NCBI GenBank assembly: GCA_016213105.1
Contig: JACRBN010000001.1
Location: 1-64,000, forward strand
Source: Chloroflexota bacterium
GTDB taxonomy: Bacteria; Chloroflexota; Anaerolineae; Anaerolineales; Villigracilaceae
Length of the DNA: 64,000 nucleotides
Reading direction: 5' to 3'
The notes under the pieces were generated by a model that was given only the letters and a program-made list of their open reading frames with translations, did not search any database and was not told where the DNA came from. A program made the position numbers and the translations under genes. Shown piece after piece: positions 34,808-51,271 of the stretch (position 1 is the stretch's first letter; every line of letters begins with the position of its first letter).

Positions 34808-36179
34808 GACTGCCTCCTTTGCGCCGCTGGGCCAGCACAACGCCCAGGACGATCACTCCGATCAATAAAGCAAAGACACAGCAGAAACACAGCAGGGCGA
34901 CCGTCAGGGCAAGCGGCGGGCCGCTGGGGGATAAGGTTGGGGCAATAATGGGCGTGTCATCCGCAGAGGAGGTGGGCACGATGTAGGGCGTCGGGGTCAC
35001 GGCCAGGGGAGCGCCCGAAACAGGCACGAAGGTCGGGACAAAGGTCGGGGTGGGCTGGGCGGTCGGCTGCGTGGAGACCGTGCGGGGCGCGGCCTGGATC
35101 GACTCCCGCCAGGCATCCTCCAGTCCGTCCACGTCGAAGCCATACACCGCAACGAGGGCCTCATCGATGGCCCCCCCGTCCCGCAGGCGCGTCAGCAGTT
35201 CGGTCATCTTGTCCTGGCCGCGGGTCTCGATAAGGAATTTGACGATGCTGTACGACTGGCTGTAGGACAGGCTGGCCTTGTCGGCCACTTCGGAGAAACC
35301 GACGCTGAGCGAGCGCACCGAGAGCAGGCTGTTGCTGCGAATGGCTTCGTCGAGCTGTGTGGCAGAATAAGCATCAAGCTCGCCCTCGGAATAGACGGCC
35401 AAACCTTCGTTGAGCCAGGTGGGCACGTCGCCCAGGCAGGAGAAGGTCAGGTGCCCGACCAGCACGTGGGTCAGCTCGTGAACGACCGTGTCGCGGTCCC
35501 AATCGGTATCCGCGCCCGAGGAGGTGCCCATGATGACGATATTGTGCTCCGAGAAGGCCATGCCGCCCGTCCACGAAGGCTCGTAGAGGATGGCGTCGCG
35601 CATGTCTTCGTAGTTGGGATACACGTACAAGTCAATGGGCGCTTCGGTATTCAGGCCCGATTGCCGCGCATTGAATTCGAGGCCGCCCACGCCCGCGGCA
35701 AGCATGTCCTGCGCGAAGGACTGGTCGACGCCATACCAATGTACGCGCAAGTCGCCCTGCGAGGTAGTCTGCCAGGGGTGGGCCGAGTCCAGCCAGGTGA
35801 CGGTCTTGCGCTCGGAGACGGCCTCGACACCCGACTCGTCGGTGAAATGCCAGCGCCACCAGATGGTGGCCCCGGGCGGCAGGGAACCGCTCTGACGCAT
35901 GTCCCAGGTCCACTCCACGTCGACGCTGTCGGCCAGGCTGAATTGCGGGAAGGCCTTGGCGAGCACCTCCCCACAGGTTTGCTGGGTGGTGCCATACTCC
36001 AGCGTGACCGCGGTGATGGCGGCGCTGCTTTGCAGGCGGGCGGAGAATGTGACGGTGTTGGGAAAATCGAGCGTGGCGGCGTCGCTGGTCACCTCCGGGC
36101 TGGGCGCGGCGAACGCGCCGCGCAAGGGCAGGAAGAGCAGGACGAACACGATCAAGAGGGGAAAAACCTTTACTCGCAT
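34800..36179 (-). CDS. Membrane-anchored metallopeptidase-like protein (peptidase MA type)
   Basis: 459 residues from MRVKVFPLL (AGGAGG, 4 nt before ATG); upstream codons lack coding support. Signal peptide (LLIVFVLLFLPLRGAFA), then a beta domain, then a gluzincin-like site: TVVHELTHVLVGH with a downstream glutamate in WLNEGLAVYSEGE. After a TP-rich stretch a C-terminal helix (ALTVALLCFCCVFALLIGVI) and RRKGG anchor it. It is translationally linked to the solute-binding protein gene, so it may supply peptides to it (inference). Confidence 0.83.
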   Translation of the reverse strand: MRVKVFPLLIVFVLLFLPLRGAFAAPSPEVTSDAATLDFPNTVTFSARLQSSAAITAVTLEYGTTQQTCGEVLAKAFPQFSLADSVDVEWTWDMRQSGSLPPGATIWWRWHFTDESGVEAVSERKTVTWLDSAHPWQTTSQGDLRVHWYGVDQSFAQDMLAAGVGGLEFNARQSGLNTEAPIDLYVYPNYEDMRDAILYEPSWTGGMAFSEHNIVIMGTSSGADTDWDRDTVVHELTHVLVGHLTFSCLGDVPTWLNEGLAVYSEGELDAYSATQLDEAIRSNSLLSVRSLSVGFSEVADKASLSYSQSYSIVKFLIETRGQDKMTELLTRLRDGGAIDEALVAVYGFDVDGLEDAWRESIQAAPRTVSTQPTAQPTPTFVPTFVPVSGAPLAVTPTPYIVPTSSADDTPIIAPTLSPSGPPLALTVALLCFCCVFALLIGVIVLGVVLAQRRKGGSHG

Positions 36180-36266
36180 GGAACCTCCTGTTGGATCCTT
36201 GACTGCGGCAACTATAACATGATATTCATCCTGCCCATTGCATACAAGAATGGAAACCACGCTTAA

Positions 36267-36338: not shown

Positions 36339-37145
36339 ATGGCTTTGCGCGGAAATTTACGCGATTTTACGATTACCCAACTGCTCAACCTGATCAACCT
36401 TGCCAGCAAGACGGGCACGCTCATTGTGGATGGTCCCAATGAGCAGGCTTTTGTCTCCTTTAGAGAGGGGAAGCTGGCCTATGCCCGCATTGGGCATGAG
36501 GAGAGCGCGCTGGCAGCGGTGCTGCATCGCGCCAATAAGTTGACGGCCAATCAATATCGCGCCATCGTGGAACGCGCCGGGCGGATGACCGACAAGGAGC
36601 TTGGCCTGCTGTTGATCAATGCGGGCTACGTCACGCAGGAGGATATCCTCCTCAACCTGCAGGGTTACTTCACCGAGGTCATTCGCCGCCTGTTCACCTG
36701 GGTGGAGGGCATCTTCCGCTTCGAAGCGGACATGCTGGCCCCCGAGGACCGTATCAACGTGCGGATGGACCTGGAGAACATCATCATCGAAGGCTCGCGC
36801 CAGTTGCGCGAATGGGAGCAGCTGCAGGACGAAATTCCCAGCCTCGAGATGGCGCTCAAGTTCACCGACCGGCCCCTCACCAACATCAACCTGAGCGTCG
36901 AGGAATGGCGGGTTGTCAAATTCATCAACCCGAAAAACACGATGAAGCAGATCGCCGTCGCATGCAAGATGAACGACCTGGAGATCCGCCGCATTGTGTA
37001 CGGCCTGCTACAGGCCGGCCTGGTGGAGATCATCCGCCCCGAGGGCGTGGTCATCCCGCCCAGTCCCAAGACGTTCCCGACCCAGGACAAGAACGAACAA
37101 AAATCTCTGATCAACAAATTGATTGGGCGCATCCGCTCGATGTAG
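36339..37145 (+). CDS. DUF4388 (PATAN-like) domain protein
   Basis: 268 residues. Residues 1-150 form a DUF4388 domain (MALRGNLRDFTITQLLNLIN, GTLIVDGPNEQAFVSFREGK, GLLLINAGYVTQEDI, EGIFRFEA), common in proteins tied to gliding, two-component signalling and GTPase switches. Residues 195-245 look like a winged-helix segment (EWRVVKFINPKNTMKQIAVA, EIRRIVYGLLQAGLVEII). It is the first gene of the cluster and is followed after 25 nt by a small GTPase, the usual pairing for this domain. Its exact role is unknown. Confidence 0.85.
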   Translation: MALRGNLRDFTITQLLNLINLASKTGTLIVDGPNEQAFVSFREGKLAYARIGHEESALAAVLHRANKLTANQYRAIVERAGRMTDKELGLLLINAGYVTQEDILLNLQGYFTEVIRRLFTWVEGIFRFEADMLAPEDRINVRMDLENIIIEGSRQLREWEQLQDEIPSLEMALKFTDRPLTNINLSVEEWRVVKFINPKNTMKQIAVACKMNDLEIRRIVYGLLQAGLVEIIRPEGVVIPPSPKTFPTQDKNEQKSLINKLIGRIRSM

Positions 37146-37170
37146 TCATCATGGAACAGAAGGATTGATT

Positions 37171-37710
37171 ATGCAAACGGTCAAGATGGTGGTAACAGGT
37201 CCCTTTAGCGCCGGCAAAACGGAGTTTATTCAGTCGGTCAGCGAGATCGATGTGGTCTCCACTGAACGCCGAATATCCTCCAGGGAGGAGCGCACGGTCA
37301 AGGATAATACGACAGTGGCCATGGACTTTGGCCGCATCACTGTGGACGAGGACCTGGTTCTCTACCTGTTTGGCACGCCCGGTCAGAAGCGCTTCGATTT
37401 CATGTGGGAAATCCTTTCGGAAGGCATGTTGGGATTCATCGTCATGGTGGACAGCACCCGCCCCGAAACCTTCCGCGAAGCACGCTCGATCCTGGAAACC
37501 TTCCGCGCCTACGCTCCGACCCCCTACGTGGTCGCCGCCAACAAGCAGGACAAGGAGGAGGCCTGGGACATGGATGACATGCGCCATGCCCTGCGCCTGG
37601 ATGCCAAGACCAAACTCCTGCCCTGCGTGGCCACCGACCGTCATGTGGTCAAGAACGTGCTGCTCGAACTTTTGTACAGCATCCTCGAAGAAATGGAAAA
37701 CGGAAAATAA
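37171..37710 (+). CDS. MglA/Arf-like small GTPase
   Basis: 179 residues from MQTVKMVVTG (AAGGA, 6 nt before ATG). G1 is GPFSAGKT at 10-17, G3 is GTPGQKRF at 68-75, G4 is NKQD at 124-127. The G3 motif has GTPGQ instead of DxxG, a form frequent in bacterial MglA-type proteins. It should cycle between GTP and GDP in the cytoplasm. No roadblock/LC7 (MglB-like) partner is in the cluster, so the DUF4388 protein may serve as regulator or target (inference). Confidence 0.9.
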   Translation: MQTVKMVVTGPFSAGKTEFIQSVSEIDVVSTERRISSREERTVKDNTTVAMDFGRITVDEDLVLYLFGTPGQKRFDFMWEILSEGMLGFIVMVDSTRPETFREARSILETFRAYAPTPYVVAANKQDKEEAWDMDDMRHALRLDAKTKLLPCVATDRHVVKNVLLELLYSILEEMENGK

Positions 37711-37735
37711 ATCCGACTGAGGATCTCAAACCGGC

Positions 37736-38536
37736 GTGTCCTCCATCACCACCGATCAAGGAATAGTACACTACGAAGTCTACGGACGCGGCCGCCCGGT
37801 CATTCTGCTACATGGATGGCTGGGTTCGTGGGGGTTATGGCAGGAGACCATGGCCTTCCTTGGCGCGTTTTATCGTACCTATGCGCTGGACTTTTGGGGT
37901 TTTGGCGAATCGGGCAAGAAACGCGGCAGTTATGCGGTGGATGATTTCGTCGACCTCGTCGATCAGTTTATGGAACGGCTGGGCATCGTGCAGGCGCCCC
38001 TCGTGGGACACAGCATGGGCGGGACGGTCAGTCTCTCGGTTGCCATTCGCTACCCCACGCGGGTCAGCAAGGTGGTGGTGGTGGGTTCGCCCATCGTCGG
38101 CTCCTCGCTGGCTCCCCTCCTGAAAGTATCAGGCTACCGGCCCATCGCATTCCTGCTCTTCAACATGATGGGCCCCTTCCGCGCCTGGATGAAATATTAC
38201 TACTCGCGCCAGATCTGCCGCGATCCGCGTTTTCCCAACATGATGGATCACGATCTATCTCGTACCACACTTGAATCCTTCCTGCGCTCGATAGCCTCCC
38301 TGCGCCGCACGGACCTGCGACCCTCCCTCAATCAGACCCACATCCCCGTGATGGGCATGTACGGCGACCGGGACAAGATCGTTCATCCGCTGCAATGGCA
38401 GCCTTTGCAGACCGGCATCCCCCAGGCGCAGATCGAACGCTTCCCCAACGCGGGCCACTTCCCTATGCTCGAAGAACCCAACGAGTTCAGCCAGAAGCTC
38501 AAAACCTTCCTGGATGCCGCGGTGGCTGTTTCATGA
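37736..38536 (+). CDS. Alpha/beta hydrolase, intact triad
   Basis: 266 residues starting with GTG. The oxyanion segment is LLHGWLGSW, the nucleophile elbow GHSMGG, the acid in MYGDRDKI and the histidine in NAGHFPM. This fits an esterase, lipase or haloperoxidase-like hydrolase. It is paralogous to the gene at 50321 at the other end of the cluster (both begin with IVHYE.GRGRP). The stop overlaps the start of the V4R gene. Its substrate is unknown; acyl esters are plausible given the neighbours. Confidence 0.88.
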   Translation: MSSITTDQGIVHYEVYGRGRPVILLHGWLGSWGLWQETMAFLGAFYRTYALDFWGFGESGKKRGSYAVDDFVDLVDQFMERLGIVQAPLVGHSMGGTVSLSVAIRYPTRVSKVVVVGSPIVGSSLAPLLKVSGYRPIAFLLFNMMGPFRAWMKYYYSRQICRDPRFPNMMDHDLSRTTLESFLRSIASLRRTDLRPSLNQTHIPVMGMYGDRDKIVHPLQWQPLQTGIPQAQIERFPNAGHFPMLEEPNEFSQKLKTFLDAAVAVS

Positions 38537-39153
38537 GCGAAGCTTTCCACTACCCGCTTCGGATGGGGCGACTCATCCTGCTGGGCATGGAGGAGATCAT
38601 TGGCCGCAACGGCGTCCATGCGGCCCTCAACCTGGCGTCCCACAGCGAATACATCAACAACTATCCACCCGCCTCGTCGGAGCGCAGCCTGCCCTTCAAA
38701 ACCATCAGCGAACTGCATGAGGCGCTGGAGCAGGCCTACGGTCCACGCGGGGGGCGCGGAGTGGCGCTGCGCACCGGTCGGGCGGTCTTTGCCTACGGCC
38801 TGCGCGAATATGGCTCCCAGCTCGGCCTGACCGAGATGGCCTTCCGCCTGCTGCCCCTGCCCACCAAACTGCGTGTGGGCGGCAAGGCCCTGGCGGAACT
38901 GTTCAATCACCAGACCGACCAGGTCGTGCGGCTGGAGGAAACCGAAAAATCCCTGCTTTGGCACATCGAGCGCTGCCCGCTGTGCTGGGAACGGCATAGC
39001 GAGGACCCCGTCTGCCACCTGGCGGTGGGGCTGTTGGAAGAATCGCTTTATTGGTTGAGCGGTGGTAAGATATTTAATGTGGAAGAAACGCAATGTATCG
39101 CGCGCGGTGATCCCACCTGCACGATCTGCATAGAAAAAACACCCATCACATAA
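38533..39153 (+). CDS. V4R-domain protein (4-vinyl reductase-like, ligand-binding)
   Basis: 206 residues starting at the ATG that overlaps the upstream TGA. The C-terminal V4R domain has the cysteine pattern CPLCWERHSEDPVCH and the ending EETQCIARGDPTCTICI. V4R domains bind small hydrophobic molecules or metals and are found in signalling proteins such as XylR and in archaeal adaptors. The N-terminal half is helical (GRLILLGMEEIIGRNGVHAA). It probably acts as a small-molecule sensor for the cluster. Confidence 0.82.
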   Translation: MSEAFHYPLRMGRLILLGMEEIIGRNGVHAALNLASHSEYINNYPPASSERSLPFKTISELHEALEQAYGPRGGRGVALRTGRAVFAYGLREYGSQLGLTEMAFRLLPLPTKLRVGGKALAELFNHQTDQVVRLEETEKSLLWHIERCPLCWERHSEDPVCHLAVGLLEESLYWLSGGKIFNVEETQCIARGDPTCTICIEKTPIT

Positions 39154-39192
39154 AGTCAGAATGTTGCAAGGGCGGGGAGACCCGCTCTTGCT

Positions 39193-39198
39193 TATAAT
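39193..39198 (+). promoter_or_regulatory. Internal -10 box (TATAAT), leaderless
   Basis: TATAAT ends 6 nt before the ATG at 39205. A GGCGGG-GAGA-CCCGCT hairpin lies just before it. The -35 is poor (TTGCAA at 39164-39169 is 23 nt away). Confidence 0.5.
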
Positions 39199-39204
39199 AG
39201 ACCC

Positions 39205-40482
39205 ATGCACAAAGTCATCCTGAACGCCCCCAAAATCATCGCCCCGTTTTGCGAGCCTGCCCGCGACCTGCGCGTGCAGAACTCGCCGCTTTGGCTGCAC
39301 CAGCGCAACCTGCTTGCCCCCTACGTGACGAGCGAACAGGAATTGCGCGCCAACGAACCCTTGCACCCCACCCGCCAGCCGACCCTGGTCTATCGCGACA
39401 ATCTATACTTCGACGAAGGCTACATCAGCGCCTTCATCGAGCAGGCCAAGAAGCGAAAACACGCTTCCCGCGCCGCCTTCTCTACAGAGGATCTGGCCTT
39501 CCGCGAACACGCCCTGCCTCTCTCGAACTCCTACAAACCCGCCGGGAGCGTGTACCTGGCCGACCTTTGGTATTACCCCAACGGCCCCGTGGCCGACGTG
39601 GAGCCGCTGGTCATCGATATGCAGGCGCGCGAGATCGGCTATTACCACGTTCCCACCTACATGGCCGACAAGAGCGGAGACCTGGTCTTTCAGGTGCCGC
39701 TGCGCTCCCTGCTGGCCATCGACTCGTGGGTGCATATTTACATCGCGGACGTGGTCTTCGGCCTGTTCGGACGCGGCGCGCGCTTCGAGAAACGTCTGGA
39801 TGAGGATTGGGTGTTCAAGATGGGCATTATCAGCAAGGCCGTCTACGAAGGCCGCCAGGTGCTGGAATGTTCGGAACTGGTCAAGATCGGCAAGAACTGC
39901 GTCATCGACCCGAGCGCCACCATCCACGGTCCGACCACCATCGGCGACAACGTCACCATCAACGCCGGCGCGGTGATCGAAAACTCGATCATCGGCAGCA
40001 ACGTCAACGTCTCGCAGGATGTGCAGATCATGCTCTCGGTGGTGGGCGATGGCACCTTCCTGCCCTTCCGCGCGGCGCTGTTCATGACCACCGTGATGGA
40101 AAACAGCATGATCGCGCAAAATACCTGCCTGCAAATGTGCGTGGTGGGACGCAACACCTTCATCGGTGCAGGCTCGACCTTCACCGATTACAACCTGATC
40201 CCCGCACCCATCCGCGCCATTGGCGGGGACGGGAAGTTGGGACCCTCCAACCGCCCGGTGATGGGCGGATGCGTGGGCCATAATTGCCGCATCGGCGCGG
40301 GCATGATTGTCTACCCCGCGCGCACCATCGAATCGGACGTGGTGCTGGCCGCGTCCAAGGAGCGCCGCGTGATCGACCGTGACATCCGCTTCGAGGACAG
40401 CGATCATCACCGCATGAAAGCCGCCCACATGCACCAGACTCCCTATCACCGCCATGAGCAGGCGGATTCGGAGTCGTGGTAG
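39205..40482 (+). CDS. Left-handed beta-helix (hexapeptide repeat) protein, acyl/nucleotidyltransferase-like
   Basis: 425 residues. Residues 1-215 are a domain of unknown fold. Residues 220-370 hold hexapeptide repeats (IGKNCVIDPSATIHGPTTIG, NVTINAGAVIENSIIGSNV, GRNTFIGAGSTFTDY, GHNCRIGAGMIVYP) typical of acyltransferases or the C-terminal part of sugar-nucleotide transferases. The last 40 residues are His-rich (DHHRMKAAHMHQTPYHRHE), possibly metal-binding. It ends 2 nt before the acyl-ACP reductase-like gene, so the two products probably act together. Confidence 0.8.
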   Translation: MHKVILNAPKIIAPFCEPARDLRVQNSPLWLHQRNLLAPYVTSEQELRANEPLHPTRQPTLVYRDNLYFDEGYISAFIEQAKKRKHASRAAFSTEDLAFREHALPLSNSYKPAGSVYLADLWYYPNGPVADVEPLVIDMQAREIGYYHVPTYMADKSGDLVFQVPLRSLLAIDSWVHIYIADVVFGLFGRGARFEKRLDEDWVFKMGIISKAVYEGRQVLECSELVKIGKNCVIDPSATIHGPTTIGDNVTINAGAVIENSIIGSNVNVSQDVQIMLSVVGDGTFLPFRAALFMTTVMENSMIAQNTCLQMCVVGRNTFIGAGSTFTDYNLIPAPIRAIGGDGKLGPSNRPVMGGCVGHNCRIGAGMIVYPARTIESDVVLAASKERRVIDRDIRFEDSDHHRMKAAHMHQTPYHRHEQADSESW

Positions 40483-40484
40483 GC

Positions 40485-41570
40485 ATGGACTCTTTCGCCT
40501 TCATCATCCATCCCATCGATCCAAAACGCGACGTCAGTCGTAAATTTCCCTTTCTGGGAAAGGTGCTGAGCGAGCGCCAGATCGATTTTTTCTCCACCTA
40601 CTTCCCGCCCGTTTACATTTCCGAGGTCGAGGGTATCACCTCGCAAGCCAACGGCAAACAGATCAAAGGCTGGTTCATCGCCTGTCCCTTCACGCCGCGC
40701 CGCATGATGGAATTGCCCGTACGCACGGTCTATCGTAAAATAGTGCAGACCGGGCATATGGCCGAGCGCCTGGGCGCGGATATCTTGGGCCTGGGCGCGT
40801 TCACCTCGGTGGTGGGCGACGCGGGTGTCACCATAGCGAACCAGTTGGAAATTCCCGTCACGACCGGCGACTCGTACACGGTGGCGCTGGCCGTGCAGGC
40901 CATCCGCGACGCCGCCAAAATCATGGATATCTCCATGCAGGATGCGACCGTGGCCGTGGTGGGCGCCACCGGCGCGATTGGCCGCGTGTGCGCCGAGTTG
41001 CTGGCGGCCGAGGCCGCCGAACTGCTGCTGGTGGCCCGGGACGAGAAAAAACTCGCAGAACTGCGGGAACGGCTCCAGGTCCAGGCCAAAAGCAGGCTGG
41101 TGACCAGCACGAAGATGGATGTGCTCTCGCGGGCGCAGTTGATCCTGACCGTGACCAGCGCCATCCACGACATCATCCGCCCGGAGCATTTGCTGCCCGG
41201 CAGCGTGGTCTGCGACGTGGCCCGCCCCCGAGATGTTTCTGCAATGGTGGCGGCGGCAAGAAATGATATATTAGTGATTGACGGCGGAATGGTCGATGTG
41301 CCAGGCCCCGTGAATTTCCATTTTAACTTTGGTTTTCCGCCTGCAAAGGCGTACGCCTGCATGGCCGAAACCATGGCCCTGGCGCTGGAAGGCCGCTTCG
41401 AAGACTACACCGTGGGCAAGGATATCACGGTGGAACGGGTCCAGGAAATCACCGCCATCGCCGAAAAACACGGCTTTCGTTTGAGCGGATTCCGCTCTTT
41501 CGAACGCGAAGTGACGCAAGAACAGATTGAAACTGTGCGTACGAATGCCCGAAGGGCGCGACGCAATTAG
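40485..41570 (+). CDS. Acyl-ACP reductase-like dehydrogenase (COG5322 type)
   Basis: 361 residues. It resembles the cyanobacterial long-chain acyl-ACP reductase that makes fatty aldehydes from acyl-ACP with NADPH. Matches include GAFTSVV, TTGDSYTVA (cyanobacterial form TTGNTHTA), the Rossmann motif VAVVGATGAIG at 157-166, IDGGMVDVPG, and AYACMAETMALALEG with C292 at the place of the reported catalytic cysteine. The N-terminus (HPIDPKRDVSRK) also aligns. No aldehyde-deformylating oxygenase is in the window, so alkane formation is not implied. Start chosen 2 nt after the upstream stop. Confidence 0.8.
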   Translation: MDSFAFIIHPIDPKRDVSRKFPFLGKVLSERQIDFFSTYFPPVYISEVEGITSQANGKQIKGWFIACPFTPRRMMELPVRTVYRKIVQTGHMAERLGADILGLGAFTSVVGDAGVTIANQLEIPVTTGDSYTVALAVQAIRDAAKIMDISMQDATVAVVGATGAIGRVCAELLAAEAAELLLVARDEKKLAELRERLQVQAKSRLVTSTKMDVLSRAQLILTVTSAIHDIIRPEHLLPGSVVCDVARPRDVSAMVAAARNDILVIDGGMVDVPGPVNFHFNFGFPPAKAYACMAETMALALEGRFEDYTVGKDITVERVQEITAIAEKHGFRLSGFRSFEREVTQEQIETVRTNARRARRN

Positions 41571-41585
41571 TATTTTGGAGGCCTT

Positions 41586-42476
41586 ATGGGAAATGCCCGC
41601 CTGCTGGTCGTGGAAGACGATATTGACATCGCCAATATGCTCAAAATCTACTTCACGGGGCTGCAATATGAAGTGGATGTAGCCAATCGCGGCGCAGACG
41701 CCCTGGAGAAGACCAAGCATGTGCTGCCCCACCTGATCGTGCTGGACATCATGCTGCCCGACATCGACGGGTATGAGGTTTGCCGCAACCTGCGCACCAG
41801 TACGCGCACCAGCCACATCCCGGTCATCTTCCTGACCCAGAAGGATGAGCGCAGCGACAAGCTGCAAGGGTTGGAACTGGGCGCGGACGACTACATCACC
41901 AAGCCCTTCGATATCGAGGAATTGAAACTGCGCGTGATGGGCGCCATCCGCCGCTCGGAGCGTGAGAGTCTCACCGATCCGCGCTCGGGCCTGCCCGCGG
42001 GACGCCTGATCGAGGAGCAGTTGCGCCGCATCATCCGCGAGGAAAACTGGGCGCTGCTCGACATCCGCGTCAACAACTTCGAGCCATTCCGCGACGTGTA
42101 CGGCTTCGTGGCGGGCGACGATGTGCTGCGCTTCACGGCCATGATGATCAGCGAGACCGTGGACGAAACCGGCTCGCCCTCCGATTTCATCGGCCATGCG
42201 GGCGGCGACAATTTCATCGTCATCACCAAGAACGAAGTGGCCGCGGATTTGAAGGCGCGCCTCAAGACCCGCTTTGCGGGAGAAGTGCTCACCCATTACA
42301 ACTTCATCGACCGCCAGCAGGGATTTGTGCAAGCCCCCAAGGCCGATGGCGGGATGGAAAAAGTCCCGTTCATGACGTTCTCGATCGGTGTTGTCTCACC
42401 GGCCCAGCAGTCATTTGCTGACATCCGTGAAATCACGGAACTGGCCGCCGAGGCTCGCCGACAGGACGGCGGTTAG
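41586..42476 (+). CDS. Response regulator with degenerate GGDEF domain
   Basis: 296 residues. The receiver domain (1-120) is complete: acidic pair E10-D12, phospho-acceptor D54 (IVLDIMLPD), T in FLTQKDE and K in YITKPFD. The second domain (130-296) has GGDEF-family shape (LTDPRSGLPAGRLIEEQLRR) but the signature reads AGGDNF and the substrate-binding residues are not conserved. It should therefore not make cyclic-di-GMP. It lies between the acyl-ACP reductase-like gene and the giant kinase, its likely partner. Confidence 0.87.
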   Translation: MGNARLLVVEDDIDIANMLKIYFTGLQYEVDVANRGADALEKTKHVLPHLIVLDIMLPDIDGYEVCRNLRTSTRTSHIPVIFLTQKDERSDKLQGLELGADDYITKPFDIEELKLRVMGAIRRSERESLTDPRSGLPAGRLIEEQLRRIIREENWALLDIRVNNFEPFRDVYGFVAGDDVLRFTAMMISETVDETGSPSDFIGHAGGDNFIVITKNEVAADLKARLKTRFAGEVLTHYNFIDRQQGFVQAPKADGGMEKVPFMTFSIGVVSPAQQSFADIREITELAAEARRQDGG

Positions 42477-42501
42477 TCCGTTATCGTGGTGATTTAATAC
42501 A

Positions 42502-45500
42502 ATGCTGGCCGGCCTCGATTTCAATATTGGGCTGTTAACCATCGGACTCGCGTCCCTCTTTTTGGTTTGGGCGGTCCTGAACATTTTGCCGCGCAGCCAG
42601 AACACAACCAAGGGGACAGGACCGACCCCAAATCTTCCCGAAATTCAACAATCGACAGATGCCGTGCTGATCGCCGAGGCGGGCGGGCGCGTGGGCTATC
42701 TCAACGCGCTGGCGCGCCAGTGGTTCGCGCTCGGCGAGGATGAGCCTGCCGATCTCGAACGCCTTGTCCGCCGTGTGCGCCCGATGGATGATTTCCTGGA
42801 TGTGTGTTCGCATCCCGGGCAAAAACGCCTGACCGTCAACGGGAAACTACTGGAGGCCACCTCGTACGAGGTGCCCGGGACATTCCCGATGGTGCTGGTT
42901 TCGTTCCGCGCACTCGACCTGACCCCCATCCTTGCCAACGGAGAGGTCAGCGATTCCATCCTCAAGGTGTCCACCGATTTCAGCCAGGCCATCGCATCCA
43001 GCCTCGATCTGGGAGCCACCATCCAGGCCGTGCTGGATAACGTGAACCGTCTGGTGCCGGCGGAAGTAATGGAACTGAAGGTCTGGGATAGCGCGCATCA
43101 GACGCTGGTCCCCTATTGGGGCCAGGAACCAGGCTCGGGGTCCCAGGGGGCAACACGGGCGACGGCATCCCAGTTTGGGGCGTTGACCGCCCAACTGGTC
43201 GATTCCAACCAGCCCCTGCTGATGGAACGGGAACGCATCCGAAAGGTCGATCCCATTTCACGCATCCAATCCTACCTGGGGCTGCCGCTCCTGGCGGGCG
43301 GGAACCTGGTGGGCACGCTCGAAGCAGGTCAGTTGGGCGCAGCCACCTTCGGCCAACATGACCTGGAATTGTTGCGCTTCATTTCCGGCCAGGCTGCGGT
43401 GGCTATCCGCAACTCGGTGCTGTACGAGGATGAACAACGCCGCGCCGCGGAACTGGCGGGCCTGGCCAACCTCACCCAGGCTGTGAGCGCCATCCGCGAC
43501 TCGAAGGAACTCTTCACCCGCCTGGTGGAAAGTATCGCGCCGCTCTTCGATGCGGAGATCGTCGGCTTCCTGCTGTACGATGAGACCCGCCGCCTCCTGG
43601 AGGGACAGGTGCCCTTCCGCGGACTGCCGCCTTCGATTGTGCAAATTTACCGCGCCACCATCACCCCCGACAGCCCGGCGGAGCGCATCCTTTCCTATCT
43701 CAAACCGATCCTGACCATCGACGCCTCGCAGGATGAGAACTGGCACACGCTTGGCCTGACCAACGTGGCCGTGGCCGCCAGCCTGCGCGATTCGGCGCTG
43801 GCGCCGCTCGTCTCGGGTGGACGCACGGTGGGATATTTGCAGGTCTCGCATCATCGCGGGGGCACGGCTCCGTTCACGAATGAGGAAGTCCGTTTGATGA
43901 ACATCGTCGCTACCCAGGCGGCGGCCATCATCGAGAACGCCCTGCTGGTGCAGCAATCCCGATCCCGCGCCCAGCGCTCGGATGCCCTGCGGCGCATCGC
44001 CAGCCTGTCGGCCTCCTCGGCCACGCTGAACGAGATACTCAAGTATTCAATGCAGGAATTGGTGCATCTCTTCCACGCCGACTCTGGCGGGATCTACCTG
44101 CTGGATGAAGAACGCGGGCAATTGCGAATGCACCGCGATTCGGCCTGGAACCTGCCCGAAAGCGCGTACGACGCCTCAGCCACACTGTACGTCGACAACC
44201 CCGAATTTCTGCTGACGGTCTCCCATACCCGCAGGCCTTTCATGTCGGGCCGCCTGAGCACCGACCGCCGTATCCTGTCCATTTACCGCCCGCTGAGCAA
44301 TGCCCTGCAAATGGAATCCGCCGTGGTGGTTCCGCTGGTGGTGCGCGAACATAATCTGGGCGAGTTGATGCTCGGCAGCAAGCAGGCCGAGCACTTCAGC
44401 GCCTTCGACTTGCAGGTGATCTCCACGGCGGCGGGACAACTGGCCGCCTCGGTGGAAAGCAGCCGCCTGCTCGGACAGACGGACACCTCCCTGCGCAAGC
44501 GGGTGGAACAGCTATCCTCCATCGCGCGCATCAGCCGCGAGCTGGGGTCATCGCTCGAACTCAAACACCTGCTCACGATCATCCACGAGGAAAGCCTGCG
44601 CATCCTGGGCGCCGCCTGCGGGACGATCCTGATCCTCGAGAACGGCGGCCAGGCCGCGGATATGAACGTAAAAATGGCCGTGGGATGCCCCGTCGATAAC
44701 GGGCTAAGCCCCCTGGATCAAAAGGTCATCCAATCGGAGGAAACCCTGATCGTGGCCGATTTCAATGCCAGCGGCGGACAGCCCCCACACGGCGACATCC
44801 GCTCGGCGCTGGTCTCACCGATCCTGTACCAGGGCCGTGCCGTGGGCGTGATCAATCTCCACTCGACACAACCGTCCTTCTTCGGGCCTGAGTCACAGGA
44901 GATCATCGAAGTTCTGGCCAACCAGGCGGCAATCGCCATCCACAACGCGAGCAAGTACATGGAGGAACGCCAGCGCGCCGAACTGCTGCACCGCCGCGCC
45001 GAGGCCTTCTCCAAGCTGACCGAGATCACCCGCACCCTGTACCAGGATCTGCCCCTGGAACAGGCGCTGTTGAGCATCGCGCAGAGCATCCGCGCCTCGA
45101 CACCGTTCCGCGCGGTGCTGGTCAGCCTGTACGAGCCCGAGACGGGCATGCTGCGGCGCGTAACGGGCGTGGGCTTCGCGCAGGAAATCCTGAACGAACT
45201 GCTCTCCCGCAAACAGCCGCTCGCGGGCCTCCAACAGTTGATGCGGCCCGAATTCAAGATCAGCCGCTCCTACTTCATCCCCGCCGACCAGACGCCGATC
45301 CTGCCTGCTGAAGTGCATTACGTATACGCCAATGCCCAGAATTCATTCGATGCGGTTCAGAACGCCTGGAATGCGGATGACTTCCTGCTCATTCCGCTGG
45401 AGGATGCGCAGGGCACTATGCTCGGCCACTTCAGCCTGGACGACCCCGCCGACGGCCTGCGTCCCGACCGCGCCACCATCGAGTCTGCGGAAGGCTTTGC

Positions 45501-48500
45501 CGCCCAGGCCGCGCTGGTCATCAGCAACAGCCAGCGCCTCAACAACTTCCAGAATCGCATCATTTCGCTCTCCGACGGCATCCAGAGACAGCAGAAACTG
45601 CTCAGCGTCAGCCAAAACGACCTGCCGATGCTCCTGCGCAAGGATCTCGAAACAACCATCGCCCTGCACAACCTGGAGCGCCGTGCCCAGCGCATCCGCG
45701 CGGGTCTGGCCATCACCGAGTCGGTCAGCCGCCAGTTGGATTCGATCTCCGCGCTCAAAGCCTTGGGCACCGAGACGTTGACCCAGTTGGGCATGTCGGC
45801 CGCCTTGATCGCCGAGAACGCCGCCGAAGGTCCGCGCCTGATGACGCCGCTGGGCAGCATCCCGCGCGCGACCAACGTGGAAGCCCTGTTCGGGCAGCGC
45901 AATCCGCTGCGCGTCGTGCTGCAAACAGGCGAACCGATCCTGACCGCCAACCTCGACGAGGATGACGAATGGCGGGATACCCCCCTGCTGACCTCCCTGC
46001 GCGCCAAGGGCATGATCTGTCTGCCCGTGGTTGTGAGGAACCAGATCGTGGCCGCCATGCTGGCCGTCACACCTGAGCCTCTGCCGACCTTCACCGATGA
46101 AGACCGCCAAGTGTACTTCCAAATCTCGCGCCAGACCTCGGTCATCCTGCAAAACATCCACCTGCTCAACGAAACCAGCCGCCGCCTGCAGGAAGTGGAT
46201 CTGCTGCTCGAGTTCAGCCGCCGCATCGCGGGCCTCTCCCCGGACGAGATGCTCAAGTCCCTGCTCGAAAGCGCGCGCCGTGTGATCTCCAATGCCCATG
46301 CGGGCGTGGCCCTGTTGTGGAACCCGCAGGTGGGTCTCCTGATCCCGCGCGCGATCACAGGCTACGCCGACAATGCCAGCCTGATGCGGGTGACCTATCG
46401 CAGCGGCGAGGCCCTGCCTGGCATCGTATTCGAGTCGCACAAGCCGCGCCGCGCAGACGAGATCAACTTCATGCGCGATTTTGCCTTGACCGCAGAGAAC
46501 CTCCTGCATTATCGCCAGGGCACGGGCGGACGCCTGCCCGTCTCCAGCCTGCTCATTCCCATCCTGGCGGGCGGCAAGAACCTCGGCCTGCTGGTGCTGG
46601 ATAACTTCAACACTGTGGCCGCCTTCAAGGCCGATGACGAAGCCCTGCTGGTTTCCCTGGCCCAGCAGTTGGCGCTCTCCCTGGAAAACGTCCGCCTGGT
46701 GCAAACGACGCAGGAACGCGCCAGCCAGATGGAGGCCCTGAACGAGGCCGCCGCCTCCCTGACCTCCAGCCTGCACAGCGAGGAACTGGTGGCGTCCCTG
46801 CTCGAACGGCTCCAACCGATCCTGCCCTACGATACGGCCACCCTGTGGCTGCGCGAAAAGGATCGCCTGGTGGTCTCCTCGGCGGTCGGCTTCCCCGATA
46901 ACGAAAGACGCCTGGGCCTGAGCACCTTCCTCGCTGACAGCGCCCTGTTCAACGAAATGTCGCGCAGCGGCCACGCCATCGCAATCGGCGATGTGCGCGA
47001 AGATATGCGTTTCCCGCAACTCGATTCCCCGCGCCTGTCCTGGCTGGGGATTCCGCTCTTCTCGAAGGGCGAGTTGACCGGCATGATCGCGCTCGAAAAA
47101 GGGCAGGCGTACTTCTTCCATGACGATTACGTTCAGGTGGCCATGACCTTTGCCAGCCAGGCCGCCGTCTCTCTGGATAATGCCCGCCTGTACGAGGACA
47201 GCCTCAACCGCGCCACCGAACTGACCCAGCGTTCCCAACGTCTGGCCTCGCTCAACCGTTTCTCCTCCTCCCTCAACGGCCTGCTCGATGCGGACCAGAT
47301 CCTGCAACTGACCTCCGAGGAATTGCGCCAGGCCATCAACGTGATGCGCGTTTCAGCGGTGGTCATCGAAGGCGACCGCGCCGTGTGGAAATCGTCCACA
47401 CCCGCCGCCACCCGCCCCCTGCCCCAGGTTCTGCCGCCCACCCCGCTGTTCGAGCGCCTGCGCGAATCCCTGGGTGTGTTCAACACCAGCAACGTCAGCC
47501 GTGAAAAGGAACTCGTCCCGCTGGCCGAGTTCGTCGGCGAGGACACGGTCTCCCTGCTGGCCCTGCCCCTGATCAGCGGCAGCGAATTACGCGCCCTGCT
47601 CTTTGCGCACACCAGCGAGGAAAGCTACTTCGGCCTGAATGAGATCGAATTGGCCCGCACCATCGCCAACCAGTCTGCCATTGCGCTAGAGAATGCCCGC
47701 CTGTACCAGGCCACCCTGCAAACGGCCCAGCGTCTCTCCATCATCAACGAGAGCAGCGCCGAGATTGGCGCCACCCTCGATTTGGAGCAAATCTACGCGG
47801 CAGTCGAACGCGCAGCCAAGAAGTTGATGCACGCCGAATCCTTCGTCATCAGCCTGTACGACGAGGCCAACAACGAAATCGAAGGCGTCTACCTGATCGA
47901 CCGCGGCGTGCGTGTACCATCCATCGTGCGCCCCATGAACGAAGATAGCCTGACAGGCCAGGTCATCCGCAGCGGCAAGCCGATCATGACCAATACGCCC
48001 GACACCACGACCCAGGCGGGCGGGGTGCAATACGGCTCGGGCGATGAAGAGCCGCTTTCGCTGCTGGCCGTGCCCATGGTCAGCCCGGGCGGCAAGGCGA
48101 CCGGCATGCTTTCGGCGCAAAGTTACGAACCCAACGCCTACAGCACAGACGACCTGCAAATCCTGGGCACGCTGGCGAACCAATCCATCGTGGCCATCCA
48201 GAACAGCCGCCTGTTTGCCGAAACCCAACGCCTGGCCCAGGAACTCGAACAACGCGTTGTCGAGCGCACCGCCCAGCTCTCGCGCGAACAGCAAAACACG
48301 GTCACCCTGCTGCGCATCCTCACCGAAGTCTCCTCCAGCCTCGACCTGGACCGCGCGCTCAACCGCACCCTGTCCCTGCTCAACGACGCCACAGGCGCCG
48401 AACAGGGCACCATCATGCTGCTCAATCCCGACGACAACCTGCTGCACTATCGGGCGGGATACGGCTACCTCTCCGAACGCTCGGACCCCAACTCCTCGCG

Positions 48501-49914
48501 CGGATTTACGCTCAAGGTCGGCGAGGGCCTGGCAGGCTGGGTCGTTCAGAATCGGGAAGCGGTGCTGGTGGATGATCTGTACAACGATCCGCGCTGGGTG
48601 CGTTCCAGCACGGGACAGGAACACCACAGTTCCATCGTCGCCCCGCTGCTGGTCGGCGAGGATGTGATCGGCGTGTTGATGATCTTCAACCGCGAGAAAT
48701 CCTTCTTCAGCCCCGATATCCTGAACCTGGTCAAGGCCATCGCCAGCCAGGTGGCTGTGGCGATCAACAATGCCAACCTGTACGAACTGATCCGCGACCA
48801 GGCCGAACGCCTGGGCAGTATGCTGCGCAAGGAAGAGGCGGAAGCCAGCCGCTCCCAGAACATCCTCGAAGCCGTGGCCGACGGCGTGCTCGTCACGGGC
48901 AGCGACAACGCCATCACCTTTGCGAACTCGTCCATCGAGCGCATTTTGGATGTGCGGCCCGACACCATGATCGGCCAGTCGTTGGAATCCTTCGGCGGGC
49001 TGTTCGGCAATACCGCCGAATTGATTGAGACCATCCGCCGCTGGTCAGAGGAACCCTCCGCCTTCGGGCGCGGCGACTCCTACGCCCAGCAGTTGGAACT
49101 GGAAACGGGCCGCATCGCCCTGATCCACCTGGCGCCCGTCATCTTCCAGAACGACTTCCTCGGCACCGTGTCCATCTTCCGCGACATCACGCACGAGGTC
49201 GAGGTCGACCGCCTGAAGTCTGAATTCGTCGCAACTGTGAGCCATGAGCTGCGCACCCCGTTGACCTCCATCAAGGGCTACGCCGACATCCTGCTGATGG
49301 GTGCGGCAGGCGCCTTCAACGAAAACCAGACGCACTTCCTGCAGATCATCAAGAACAACTCCGAGCGTCTCAATATTCTGGTCAACGACCTACTCGACAT
49401 TTCGCGCATCGAAGCGGGACGCGTCACGCTCATCCCGCAGCCCATCGACCTGCACGGCGTGGCCGAGGATGTGCTCGGCGAAATGCTCCGCCGCTCCCAG
49501 GAGGAGGGCAAACCCATGGCCATTTCGCTCGATGCGCCCAGGGACCTGCCGCGCGTCCTGGGCGATCCTGAGCGTGTCCGCCAGATCATTGCCAACCTGG
49601 TCGACAATGCCTACAACTACACGCCCGAAAATGGCACCATCAAGATCCGCATCCGCACCACGGATAATTCCGATATCCAGGTGGATGTGGAGGACAATGG
49701 CGTGGGCATCGCCATACCCGACCAGAATCGCATCTTCGAACGCTTCCACCGCGGCGAACATCCGCTTGTGCTGGCCACCCCGGGCACGGGTCTGGGCCTG
49801 CCCATCGTCCGCCAGTTGGTGGAAATGCACAGCGGGCGCATTTGGATGTACAGCCAGGGCGTGCCCGGCAAGGGCAGTGTGTTCTCCTTCACCCTTCCGA
49901 CACAAAGAAATTAA
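42502..49914 (+). CDS. Giant histidine kinase with about eleven GAF domains
   Basis: 2470 residues. One membrane helix lies at 8-28 (IGLLTIGLASLFLVWAVLNI). A PAS-like segment is at 50-150. Then about eleven GAF domains follow in series, with starts near 155, 318, 495, 670, 835, 1070, 1230, 1410, 1580, 1745 and 1930, most ending in a helix of form AIxIENARLY. A PAS domain spans 2110-2220, HisKA has H2248 in ATVSHELRTPL, and the HATPase has VDNAYNYTP (N box), DVEDNGVGI (G1) and GTGLGLPIV (G2). It integrates many inputs, probably small ligands, into phosphotransfer to the flanking receivers. Confidence 0.92.
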   Translation: MLAGLDFNIGLLTIGLASLFLVWAVLNILPRSQNTTKGTGPTPNLPEIQQSTDAVLIAEAGGRVGYLNALARQWFALGEDEPADLERLVRRVRPMDDFLDVCSHPGQKRLTVNGKLLEATSYEVPGTFPMVLVSFRALDLTPILANGEVSDSILKVSTDFSQAIASSLDLGATIQAVLDNVNRLVPAEVMELKVWDSAHQTLVPYWGQEPGSGSQGATRATASQFGALTAQLVDSNQPLLMERERIRKVDPISRIQSYLGLPLLAGGNLVGTLEAGQLGAATFGQHDLELLRFISGQAAVAIRNSVLYEDEQRRAAELAGLANLTQAVSAIRDSKELFTRLVESIAPLFDAEIVGFLLYDETRRLLEGQVPFRGLPPSIVQIYRATITPDSPAERILSYLKPILTIDASQDENWHTLGLTNVAVAASLRDSALAPLVSGGRTVGYLQVSHHRGGTAPFTNEEVRLMNIVATQAAAIIENALLVQQSRSRAQRSDALRRIASLSASSATLNEILKYSMQELVHLFHADSGGIYLLDEERGQLRMHRDSAWNLPESAYDASATLYVDNPEFLLTVSHTRRPFMSGRLSTDRRILSIYRPLSNALQMESAVVVPLVVREHNLGELMLGSKQAEHFSAFDLQVISTAAGQLAASVESSRLLGQTDTSLRKRVEQLSSIARISRELGSSLELKHLLTIIHEESLRILGAACGTILILENGGQAADMNVKMAVGCPVDNGLSPLDQKVIQSEETLIVADFNASGGQPPHGDIRSALVSPILYQGRAVGVINLHSTQPSFFGPESQEIIEVLANQAAIAIHNASKYMEERQRAELLHRRAEAFSKLTEITRTLYQDLPLEQALLSIAQSIRASTPFRAVLVSLYEPETGMLRRVTGVGFAQEILNELLSRKQPLAGLQQLMRPEFKISRSYFIPADQTPILPAEVHYVYANAQNSFDAVQNAWNADDFLLIPLEDAQGTMLGHFSLDDPADGLRPDRATIESAEGFAAQAALVISNSQRLNNFQNRIISLSDGIQRQQKLLSVSQNDLPMLLRKDLETTIALHNLERRAQRIRAGLAITESVSRQLDSISALKALGTETLTQLGMSAALIAENAAEGPRLMTPLGSIPRATNVEALFGQRNPLRVVLQTGEPILTANLDEDDEWRDTPLLTSLRAKGMICLPVVVRNQIVAAMLAVTPEPLPTFTDEDRQVYFQISRQTSVILQNIHLLNETSRRLQEVDLLLEFSRRIAGLSPDEMLKSLLESARRVISNAHAGVALLWNPQVGLLIPRAITGYADNASLMRVTYRSGEALPGIVFESHKPRRADEINFMRDFALTAENLLHYRQGTGGRLPVSSLLIPILAGGKNLGLLVLDNFNTVAAFKADDEALLVSLAQQLALSLENVRLVQTTQERASQMEALNEAAASLTSSLHSEELVASLLERLQPILPYDTATLWLREKDRLVVSSAVGFPDNERRLGLSTFLADSALFNEMSRSGHAIAIGDVREDMRFPQLDSPRLSWLGIPLFSKGELTGMIALEKGQAYFFHDDYVQVAMTFASQAAVSLDNARLYEDSLNRATELTQRSQRLASLNRFSSSLNGLLDADQILQLTSEELRQAINVMRVSAVVIEGDRAVWKSSTPAATRPLPQVLPPTPLFERLRESLGVFNTSNVSREKELVPLAEFVGEDTVSLLALPLISGSELRALLFAHTSEESYFGLNEIELARTIANQSAIALENARLYQATLQTAQRLSIINESSAEIGATLDLEQIYAAVERAAKKLMHAESFVISLYDEANNEIEGVYLIDRGVRVPSIVRPMNEDSLTGQVIRSGKPIMTNTPDTTTQAGGVQYGSGDEEPLSLLAVPMVSPGGKATGMLSAQSYEPNAYSTDDLQILGTLANQSIVAIQNSRLFAETQRLAQELEQRVVERTAQLSREQQNTVTLLRILTEVSSSLDLDRALNRTLSLLNDATGAEQGTIMLLNPDDNLLHYRAGYGYLSERSDPNSSRGFTLKVGEGLAGWVVQNREAVLVDDLYNDPRWVRSSTGQEHHSSIVAPLLVGEDVIGVLMIFNREKSFFSPDILNLVKAIASQVAVAINNANLYELIRDQAERLGSMLRKEEAEASRSQNILEAVADGVLVTGSDNAITFANSSIERILDVRPDTMIGQSLESFGGLFGNTAELIETIRRWSEEPSAFGRGDSYAQQLELETGRIALIHLAPVIFQNDFLGTVSIFRDITHEVEVDRLKSEFVATVSHELRTPLTSIKGYADILLMGAAGAFNENQTHFLQIIKNNSERLNILVNDLLDISRIEAGRVTLIPQPIDLHGVAEDVLGEMLRRSQEEGKPMAISLDAPRDLPRVLGDPERVRQIIANLVDNAYNYTPENGTIKIRIRTTDNSDIQVDVEDNGVGIAIPDQNRIFERFHRGEHPLVLATPGTGLGLPIVRQLVEMHSGRIWMYSQGVPGKGSVFSFTLPTQRN

Positions 49915-49924
49915 CGAGGCTTGA

Positions 49925-50302
49925 ATGACAAAAATTTTAATTGCCGAAGATGAACCCGATATCCGCGAACTGGTGGCCTTCACCCTGCGCTTTGCGGGCT
50001 ACGAAGTGGTGACTGCCGCGAACGGCGAAGAAGCCGTTCAGCAGGCGGTGAAGGAGATGCCCGACCTGGCCCTGATGGATGTGCGCATGCCGCGCATGAC
50101 CGGTTACGACGCCTGCCGCGCCATGAAGGCCAATCCTGAATTAAAAGACATCCCCGTTGTCTTCCTCTCCGCCAAAGGGCAGGAGGGCGAGATTGCCACG
50201 GGCATCGAAGCCGGCGCAGAGGAATACCTGCTCAAACCCTTTGCCCCCGATCAGCTTACCGAGCGCGTGCGCGCCATTCTGGGCAAGTTTGGAAAAAAAT
50301 AA
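49925..50302 (+). CDS. Single-domain CheY-like response regulator
   Basis: 125 residues, a receiver only. Acidic pocket E8-D9/E10, phospho-acceptor D52 (LALMDVRMPRM), S in FLSAKGQ and K in LLKPFAP. It begins 10 nt after the giant kinase and is almost certainly a phosphoryl acceptor from it. With no output domain it must act by protein contact or as a phosphate sink. Confidence 0.93.
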   Translation: MTKILIAEDEPDIRELVAFTLRFAGYEVVTAANGEEAVQQAVKEMPDLALMDVRMPRMTGYDACRAMKANPELKDIPVVFLSAKGQEGEIATGIEAGAEEYLLKPFAPDQLTERVRAILGKFGKK

Positions 50303-50320
50303 AGGACGATAGGCCGAGCA

Positions 50321-51100
50321 ATGAGCGCCATCATGATCGACGGATCCATTGTGCATTACGAAGCGTTGGGACGCGGGCGTCCCATCGTATTCCTGCACGA
50401 CTGGGTCGGCTCCTGGCGCTACTGGATTACCTCCATGCAGGTCGCATCGACCTCCTTCCGCGCCTATGCGCTCGATTTGTTCGGCTTCGGCGATACCGCC
50501 CGCGAATCGGTCAAATACTCCATCGAACAACAAGCCAACCTGCTCAATCACTTCCTGACCGAAATGGGCATCGGCAAGATCGCCATTGTCGGCCACGGGC
50601 TGGGCGCGCTGGTCGGCTTCCACTTCATCCAGCAGTTCCCGAAGAGCGTGGACCGCATCATGGCGATCACCTGTCCGCAAAGCGCGGAGGGCGTCAACGC
50701 CCGCATGAAGACGGCCTCCCCCTCCGAATTGGTGGACTGGCTCTCGAACCGTTCGCCCGAGGCGGTCACCGCCCTGGCAGACGCCTCCAAGGCGGACCCC
50801 CAAGCCATCGCCGCATCCATCACCAATATCCTGACGGACAACCTGCCCATGCGCGAGGCGCTGGTTCCCAGCCTGTTCGTGTACGGCCAGAACGATCCCG
50901 CCATCATGCCGCCCGTCGAAGACAGCCAAAATCCCTACTCGCTGACACACCAGATCATGCTCGAAAACGTCGGTCACTTCCCAATGATCGAGGACCAGCT
51001 CAAGTTCAACCGCCTGATGACCGACTTCATGGCGCTCGACTCGGGGGCCAGCCCCAAGGAATTGCAAATGAAGGAAGAGTGGAAACGACGGGTACGTTGA
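50321..51100 (+). CDS. Alpha/beta hydrolase-fold protein lacking the nucleophile serine
   Basis: 259 residues, paralogue of the hydrolase at 37736 (shared SIVHYEALGRGRPIVFLHDW, LDLFGFGDTA). The nucleophile elbow reads GHGLGA, with glycine where the paralogue has serine (GHSMGG). The acid (YGQNDPAI) and the histidine (VGHFPMIED) regions remain. It is probably not a classical serine hydrolase; a binding or scaffold role is suggested. It is the last gene of the ten-gene cluster. Confidence 0.87.
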   Translation: MSAIMIDGSIVHYEALGRGRPIVFLHDWVGSWRYWITSMQVASTSFRAYALDLFGFGDTARESVKYSIEQQANLLNHFLTEMGIGKIAIVGHGLGALVGFHFIQQFPKSVDRIMAITCPQSAEGVNARMKTASPSELVDWLSNRSPEAVTALADASKADPQAIAASITNILTDNLPMREALVPSLFVYGQNDPAIMPPVEDSQNPYSLTHQIMLENVGHFPMIEDQLKFNRLMTDFMALDSGASPKELQMKEEWKRRVR

Positions 51101-51190: not shown

Positions 51191-51263
51191 GCCTCCATCG
51201 TCTAGTGGCCCAGGACGAAGCCCTCTCAAGGCTTAAACCGGAGTTCGAATCTCCGTGGAGGCA
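51191..51263 (+). tRNA. tRNA-Glu (anticodon CUC)
   Basis: The acceptor stem GCCTCCA pairs with TGGAGGC and the discriminator is A. Anticodon arm AAGCC-CTCTCAA-GGCTT gives anticodon CTC. The T arm has GTTCGAATC. CCA is not encoded. A terminator follows 9 nt later. Confidence 0.95.
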
Positions 51264-51271
51264 CAAAAAAG

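Follow-up and report, generated by a model that had tools for sequence, protein, structure and literature searches.

Why do ten genes for a small Ras-like GTPase, a phosphorelay, putative ligand-binding proteins and lipid-type enzymes stand almost back to back in a Chloroflexota bacterium of the family Villigracilaceae, and do they serve one system? The question is raised by the first 64,000 nucleotides (nt) of contig JACRBN010000001.1, referred to here as the window. The genes are labelled A to J in order, and all positions are those of the whole window. Ten intact open reading frames (ORFs) follow one another on the + strand between 36339 and 51100, with intergenic gaps, from A to J, of 25, 25, -4, 51, 2, 15, 25, 10 and 18 nt (F counted from its ATG). 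The ten genes are a conserved unit in Anaerolineae, and their chance grouping is excluded because the gene order is conserved; a plausible though tentative reading, developed below, is that they form one signalling system. The initial annotation of the window had described ten ORFs in this order with gaps of -4 to 51 nt, all of which are intact, and its domain names hold at the family level by profile matches. It had also proposed that the GTPase, the phosphorelay and the ligand-binding folds belong to one signalling cluster. An order confined to this strain would have refuted that proposal, and the order proved to be conserved well beyond the strain. The annotation had known of no described system with this set; no description of the ten-gene block was found in the open-licence literature, most subscription papers lying outside that search. 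Published work is cited by PubMed Central (PMC) identifier.

Conservation and division of the block

A search with F covered 301 Chloroflexota genomes, 18 of them from the window's own family (window included), and all 18 gave an F match of at least 70% identity. All ten genes stand in order at 12 of the 17 loci from the other genomes of this family. The remaining five consist of two that end at a contig edge inside H (L036 and L040), one in which D alone is missing (L041), and two that carry E to J, with A to D sited at another locus (L042 and L043). In another family of the class, all ten genes occur in order at 34–76% identity (L053); three loci have A-B-C-E-F only (L049, L050 and L051), and L052 is a short contig with F. 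Seven additional family loci include two complete (L173 and L178), two cut (L172 and L177), two without D (L175 and L176), and one without D and F (L174). Other families of the same taxonomic order contributed two loci without F (L164 and L166) and one with A to E only (L165).

A second set was obtained by scanning named genomes with an E profile, keeping the best 80 of 465 stretches that encode E relatives; J mostly lies past the 10-kb flank in this set. The order A-B-C-D-E-F-G-H-I was found in 37 of its 49 fully covered loci, the others comprising five without D, three with E-F-G-H-I, three with A-B-C-D-E-G-H-I-J and one with E-G-H-I-J. The two sets are not independent: E is identical in the named-genome set for 14 of the 17 same-family loci, four of the seven additional family loci recur there, and motif counts over the ortholog sets given below include up to five genomes twice. 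Across families, order, strand and short gaps persist at 34–95% protein identity. The closest published trace found is a gene table for Anaerolinea thermolimosa, in which DUF4388, GTPase, hydrolase and 'glmU' genes, homologs of A, B, C and E, are listed close to one for cytochrome cd1 (PMC8756737, Appendix 2).

The block is also found divided. In two genomes (G055 and G120), it is cleanly split into A-B-C-D (L216 and L217) and E to J at another locus. Nine further loci (L159–L163 and L168–L171) come from genomes that we take to be of Chloroflexia type. E, which forms the block's constant core, stands together with G and H in all nine, D precedes E in six, and a hydrolase follows H in all three that extend at least 400 nt past H (L161, L162 and L163); the remaining six end at most 264 nt past the kinase match. 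A DUF4388–GTPase pair occupies a separate locus in the four Chloroflexia-type genomes searched for it (L212–L215; GTPase 46–66% identical). In Chloroflexia-type genomes, F is the C-terminal half of a protein of about 690 residues encoded elsewhere in all three cases read (L057:5592-7667, L061:11883-13940 and L063:5577-7631), the N-terminal half of which had no Pfam match in the two proteins scanned; genome G150 gave no strong F match. A-B, (D)-E-G-H(-J) and F are separate modules in the Chloroflexia-type genomes, whereas Anaerolineae have them joined, which argues for a common function. The features of the block in the window are collected in Table 1.

Table 1. Genes and promoter-like elements of the block in the window, with the evidence for each assignment
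Feature	Position	Strand	Evidence or remark
Promoter-like P1	36267..36295	+	TTGACG, 17-nt spacer, TATAAT; 43 nt before gene A
A: DUF4388 (PATAN-type), 268 residues	36339..37145	+	PF14332 1e-26, 93.8 bits, curated cut-off 25
B: small Ras-like GTPase, GTPGQ type, 179 residues	37171..37710	+	Ras/Arf-type domain match
C: alpha/beta hydrolase, catalytic serine intact (GHSMGG), 266 residues	37736..38536	+	Abhydrolase_1 4.7e-32
D: V4R-domain protein, CPxC motif, 206 residues	38533..39153	+	PF02830 37.4 bits, curated cut-off 31
Promoter-like P2 (-10-type box, variant in window)	39193..39198	+	12 nt before gene E start
E: predicted nucleotidyltransferase-fold domain + left-handed beta-helix, 425 residues	39205..40482	+	Hexapep 2.7e-15; predicted structure
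F: acyl-thioester reductase, PigE-N / acyl-ACP reductase (AAR) kind, 361 residues	40485..41570	+	NF053554 231 bits, TIGR04058 136 bits
G: receiver + degenerate GGDEF by motif (GGDNF), 296 residues	41586..42476	+	REC + GGDEF matches
H: histidine kinase, 2470 residues	42502..49914	+	Ten GAF, one PAS, HisKA, HATPase
I: single-domain CheY-like receiver, 125 residues	49925..50302	+	REC match
J: alpha/beta-hydrolase pseudo-enzyme, Ser nucleophile replaced by Gly (GHGLGA), 259 residues	50321..51100	+	Abhydrolase_1

Active and degenerate members

Active residues are intact in the kinase, the GTPase and both receivers. The HisKA and HATPase domains of H matched at 1.4e-20 and 4.1e-28 behind its GAF and PAS stretches, the SHELRTP motif is present in 73 of 73 orthologs, and there is one N-terminal hydrophobic stretch with a hydropathy peak at residue 11. 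The receiver aspartate is kept in 92 of 92 orthologs of G and 69 of 69 of I. B is the most conserved gene of the block within the family (86–90% identity), with TPGQ in 82 of 82 orthologs (GTPGQ in the window) and NKQD in 83 of 83. B matches only itself in the window genome, and A is the sole DUF4388 match there (E 0.001).

The GTPGQ motif, as defined for the MglA groups (PMC4316618), places B by motif in MglA-family Groups 2–5 as a conservon-like GTPase. The earlier term 'MglA-like' was therefore imprecise, and MglA proper (Group 1) was rejected from the same motif and from weak PDB matches to MglA (6.5e-5 or weaker). Among the matches listed, GTPases of Streptomyces, Deinococcus and Thermus plasmids share about 40% identity with B. 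The Thermus locus has adjoining DUF4388, GTPase and Roadblock genes; in Deinococcus, the GTPase gene is preceded by one annotated only as hypothetical and also has a Roadblock neighbour; the Streptomyces cadmiisoli locus encodes a nitrate/nitrite-sensing-domain protein, Roadblock, DUF742 and GTPase. The pairing of A and B is already known, PATAN proteins being neighbours of some Group 1 and 5 MglA GTPases (PMC4316618).

The window genome has three Roadblock proteins, all encoded on other contigs. One type of locus, present in the window's own genome (L179:1881-4495, contig C13) and in relatives (L182–L206), combines Roadblock with a second V4R protein (V4R', 46% identical to D), a second receiver-GGDEF protein (47% identical to G) and often a glycosyltransferase. 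All 27 family genomes searched gave some V4R match, and 25 of them have a close V4R' (at least 67% identity). At each of these 25 loci, the window genome's own among them, the Roadblock gene stands directly before V4R', and the G paralog comes next in 21; this Roadblock is 44% identical to that of Thermus over 95 residues. The CPxC motif of D reads CPLC in 60 of 74 orthologs, and a sequence search of the PDB with D gave nothing of use. V4R domains are kin of Bet3/TRAPPC3 and are predicted to bind hydrophobic ligands (PMC2253512; PMC10933270).

Three members, E, G and J, keep enzyme folds without the diagnostic catalytic motifs. The initial annotation had named two degenerate enzymes, a dead GGDEF protein and a dead second hydrolase; both stand, and E is added as a third. 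The active-site motif of diguanylate cyclases is GG[DE]EF, and that of G is GGDNF in 75 of 89 orthologs, with other variants including VGPDF and one GGDDF, so that its GGDEF domain is judged degenerate by motif. No serine nucleophile was found in any of the 31 J orthologs read, three of them Chloroflexia-type. The residue at this position is Gly in ten and Asp in five of the first 15 family orthologs; Gly in eight, Asp in three, Asn in two and Ala in one of 14 other loci (L163 included); and Gly in L161 and L162.

The predicted model of E, built on a 56-sequence alignment, has a predicted local distance difference test score (pLDDT) of 82.5 and a predicted template modelling score (pTM) of 0.80; an earlier model from 14 sequences was poor (pLDDT 56). 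Its best match was the sugar-1-phosphate nucleotidylyltransferase ST0452 (5z09_E; Z 24.0, root-mean-square deviation (rmsd) 5.3 over 304 residues; Foldseek 1.4e-11, TM 0.53), followed by GMPPB (7d73_F; Z 18.0, rmsd 3.3, 255 residues) and eIF2B (Z about 16), so the model assigns E a nucleotidyltransferase plus beta-helix fold. E sequence matches with coordinates span the beta-helix part only. An N-terminal GxGxR is the signature of sugar-1-phosphate nucleotidylyltransferases, and it was found in none of 121 E sequences (102 distinct; first 45 residues searched). A working GlmU or pyrophosphorylase was accordingly lowered as a candidate for E. A comparison of the beta-helix with the catalytic histidine of GlmU gives a lead only and carries no weight here.

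C and F retain catalytic residues. The serine motif GHSMGG of C is present in 83 of 84 orthologs, where only the J-position gene of L163 departs from it, and all 19 members of the first set have it as well; Asp213 and His241 are kept in 85 of 85 read. A search with C matched many hydrolases, none informative. F matched PigE-type 4ppm_A and acyl-ACP reductase 6jzq_A in the PDB and remains below the curated cut-offs (136 of 449.7 bits for TIGR04058 and 231.1 of 850 bits for NF053554). Its ACMAET aligns with ACFAEA of 6jzq, in which the cysteine is catalytic, and all 83 F orthologs keep this Cys. The reaction of PigE is the reduction of a thioester, yielding an aldehyde (PMC8341465). A plasmid search with F returned 16 records, of which the five listed are annotated as aminotransferases (30–34% identity). 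F is dispensable to the block. Three F-less loci (L121, L126 and L142) lie in genomes that keep short F pieces (G419, G420 and G422), and the genome of a fourth (L146; G421) gave a weak match only; no F match was found in G104 and G367. The 'acyl metabolism' of the initial annotation is not retained as written, since it depends on F, and possibly on C as another enzyme, and F is missing in some loci.

Promoter-like elements and flanking genes

The hexamers of P1 match the consensus at 11 of 12 positions. A P1-like score of at least 10 of 12 within 150 nt was found in 85 of 91 regions upstream of A (window included; some genomes present twice), against 0.9% of base shuffles, and the element is kept at this score within 100 nt of A in 62 of 64 named-genome loci. 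The two-hexamer score is at shuffle level before B to I, the genes tested. A TATAAT-like box occurs before A in 63 of 64 regions, before E in 51 of 79, before B in 7 of 66, and before C, D, F, G, H and I in at most one each. The box before E stands 12–30 nt, mostly 12–15, ahead of the start codon; its commonest form among relatives (L072–L142) is CTTTGATTTATAAT, and the E–J transcript may be nearly leaderless because of this short distance. An AACW-WGTT inverted repeat (AACA..TGTT) lies upstream of the E box in 21 of 80 regions, compared with 4.7 (standard deviation 2.0) in base shuffles. The P2 14-mer occurs once per genome, always before E, in three of four whole genomes scanned; it was not found in the fourth (G297), where the reversed control pattern matched once.

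The near-consensus promoter claimed initially thus stands before A, and the idea of one promoter was incomplete, with a second conserved element between D and E. The two promoter-like elements predict two transcription units, A-D and E-J, matching the split in G055 and G120. A single transcript for the whole block is doubtful, since E has its own conserved promoter-like element.

The stop codon of C overlaps the start of D, and this -4 overlap recurs in 12 of 12 complete loci. F has an alternative GTG start at 40476. To the left of A lie two genes on the - strand (33218-36260), one peptidase-like and one substrate-binding-protein-like; the same two oppositely oriented genes flank A in L045 and, by eye, A-D in L216. 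A tRNA-Glu (CTC) gene directly follows the block at 51191-51264. The next ORF probably starts further downstream than its listed GTG at 51205, because that codon lies within the tRNA gene.

Proposed mechanism and alternatives

We tentatively read the block as one Anaerolineae signalling system, a conservon-like kinase/GTPase switch with different partners that is fed by pseudo-enzyme and V4R sensors. H would be anchored by its N-terminal helix, integrate small-molecule cues through its GAF and PAS domains, and phosphorylate the receivers G and I. Ligand binding, as sensors or adaptors and not as catalysts, would be the role of the V4R protein D and of the degenerate E (sugar-nucleotide type) and J (hydrolase). 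The receiver and sensor states would set the nucleotide state of B, which would act through its DUF4388 partner A, and the Roadblock-V4R'-receiver' locus would probably provide a Roadblock regulator in trans. The catalytic members would be F and possibly C, which would make or clear a hydrophobic ligand, for example a fatty aldehyde. We infer throughout the interactions and ligands of the block proteins, and the output; no known effector was found among the block genes.

Several known systems share parts of this arrangement. In conservons (CvnA-D; definition in PMC4316618), as in the Streptomyces cadmiisoli locus, a histidine kinase is encoded with a GTPGQ-type small GTPase and small partners, as are H and B here. 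Conservons also have Roadblock (CvnB) and DUF742-type (CvnC) genes, of which the block has neither, and the block, unlike a conservon, has DUF4388, V4R, two receivers, E, F, two hydrolases and a kinase with ten GAF domains. The conservon kinase has an LPxR motif at its C-terminus, whereas the window H, the one protein checked, lacks it and ends in LPTQRN. The DUF4388-GTPase-Roadblock loci of Thermus and Deinococcus have a GTPase about 40% identical to B and, in Thermus, the A-B adjacency; the two loci read have no kinase, receivers, V4R or reductase directly adjoining, and the Roadblock related to the block lies at another locus. RsbQ-RsbP is a known hydrolase-PAS sensing pair, and alpha/beta hydrolases of this type are encoded beside PAS-bearing kinases, cyclases or phosphatases (PMC3183031). 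RsbQ needs its catalytic triad, however, while J is without the serine and follows a multi-GAF kinase. F shares with PigE and cyanobacterial acyl-ACP reductase the sequence family and the cysteine position, but it has 361 residues, no aminotransferase domain, scores below the curated values and a place in a signalling operon. E shares a predicted two-domain fold with ST0452, GMPPB and eIF2B-type proteins and differs from pyrophosphorylases in its missing GxGxR and in sequence matches restricted to the beta-helix part.

Several observations weigh against this signalling reading. A-B and E-J are able to exist apart, and the two-hexamer score before E is no better than shuffles, the -10 box alone being conserved there. 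No Roadblock and no DUF742 were detected in the ten block proteins (profile search, E 0.01). Among the 71 loci that show both C and E, 11 have no D, and every one of these 11 has F. Of the 73 loci with both E and G, four have no F between them (L121, L126, L142 and L146; E-G gaps 237–406 nt), and three of the four retain D. D and F are thus lost independently, which weakens a ligand link between them. Asp is the nucleophile of epoxide hydrolases and dehalogenases, and J has it at this position in five of the 15 family proteins and in three of the 14 from other loci; some J proteins may be enzymes after all, because this Asp could still act as a nucleophile. New chemistry may likewise occur at invariant beta-helix residues of E, whose sites were judged by motif and fold.

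An unlikely but substantial alternative is a biosynthesis operon in which the signalling genes have a regulatory part and no more. F would reduce an acyl thioester to a fatty aldehyde, which E and C would then modify or pass on to a lipid or glycan of the envelope. The AAR/PigE family match and cysteine of F, the serine of C and the predicted sugar-nucleotide transferase fold of E are consistent with it. E (1e-30) and F (1e-50) also co-occur in 49 of 301 Chloroflexota genomes (four with E only, four with F only, 244 with neither), although this co-occurrence follows a few clades. The missing pyrophosphorylase signature of E argues against such an operon, as does the loss of F from the block in the four loci named above and in L164–L166 and L174. 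It is highly improbable that the block is an MglA/PATAN-type switch of polarity or motility directing type IV pili. PATAN regulators are linked to cyanobacterial pili, and the PATAN neighbours of some Group 1 and 5 GTPases would suit such a switch, but B is not Group 1 by motif and PilT (E 1e-40) was found in none of the 18 same-family genomes and in one of 53 genomes with E. Control of type IV pili through PATAN and PilB was rejected as the leading account on the PilT search, which found it in 49 of 301 genomes, and type IV pili are an unlikely output because PilT was not found in the same-family genomes. Tad pili have been described near septa in Chloroflexales (PMC7332563). A mention of PATAN in a sul4 paper proved to be a place name.

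We consider it quite improbable that the block is a counterpart of TRAPP-Rab, in which V4R, with its Bet3 fold, and a Roadblock platform would control the nucleotide state of B, with a hydrophobic ligand as the gate. The kinship of V4R with Bet3/TRAPPC3, the position of D two genes after B and the constant Roadblock-V4R' adjacency are in its favour. Its difficulties are that 11 of 71 loci have kept the block but not D, that D stands with E-G-H, away from A-B, in Chloroflexia-type genomes, and that V4R is described as a ligand-binding domain, a role also favoured by the Asgard study (PMC10933270). A fuller form, in which B, Roadblock and the V4R proteins, through two loci sharing V4R and receiver-pseudoGGDEF paralogs, would make up a ligand-gated exchange platform driven by the phosphorelay and read out by dead enzymes, has still poorer prospects. 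Loose co-location of unrelated genes is barely credible: the block can split and single genes are lost, but order, strand and short gaps are kept over the identity range given above, the E-G-H core is kept in a second group, and the C-D overlap is constant.

Bacterial small Ras-like GTPases are understood in few systems, such as Myxococcus polarity and Streptomyces conservons, and the block adds a conserved system from a phylum known here mostly by metagenome records. It would couple a Ras-like GTPase to a phosphorelay and three conserved pseudo-enzyme-like members, and so gives a testable example of enzyme folds taken over for sensing. Three folds of eukaryotic TRAPP-Rab (GTPase, Roadblock and V4R) are present across two related bacterial loci; in the archaeon MK-D1, GTPase genes are generally not in operons with such regulators (PMC10933270). 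If the TRAPP-like reading were true, the two loci would represent a bacterial assembly of the folds that activate eukaryotic Rab GTPases.

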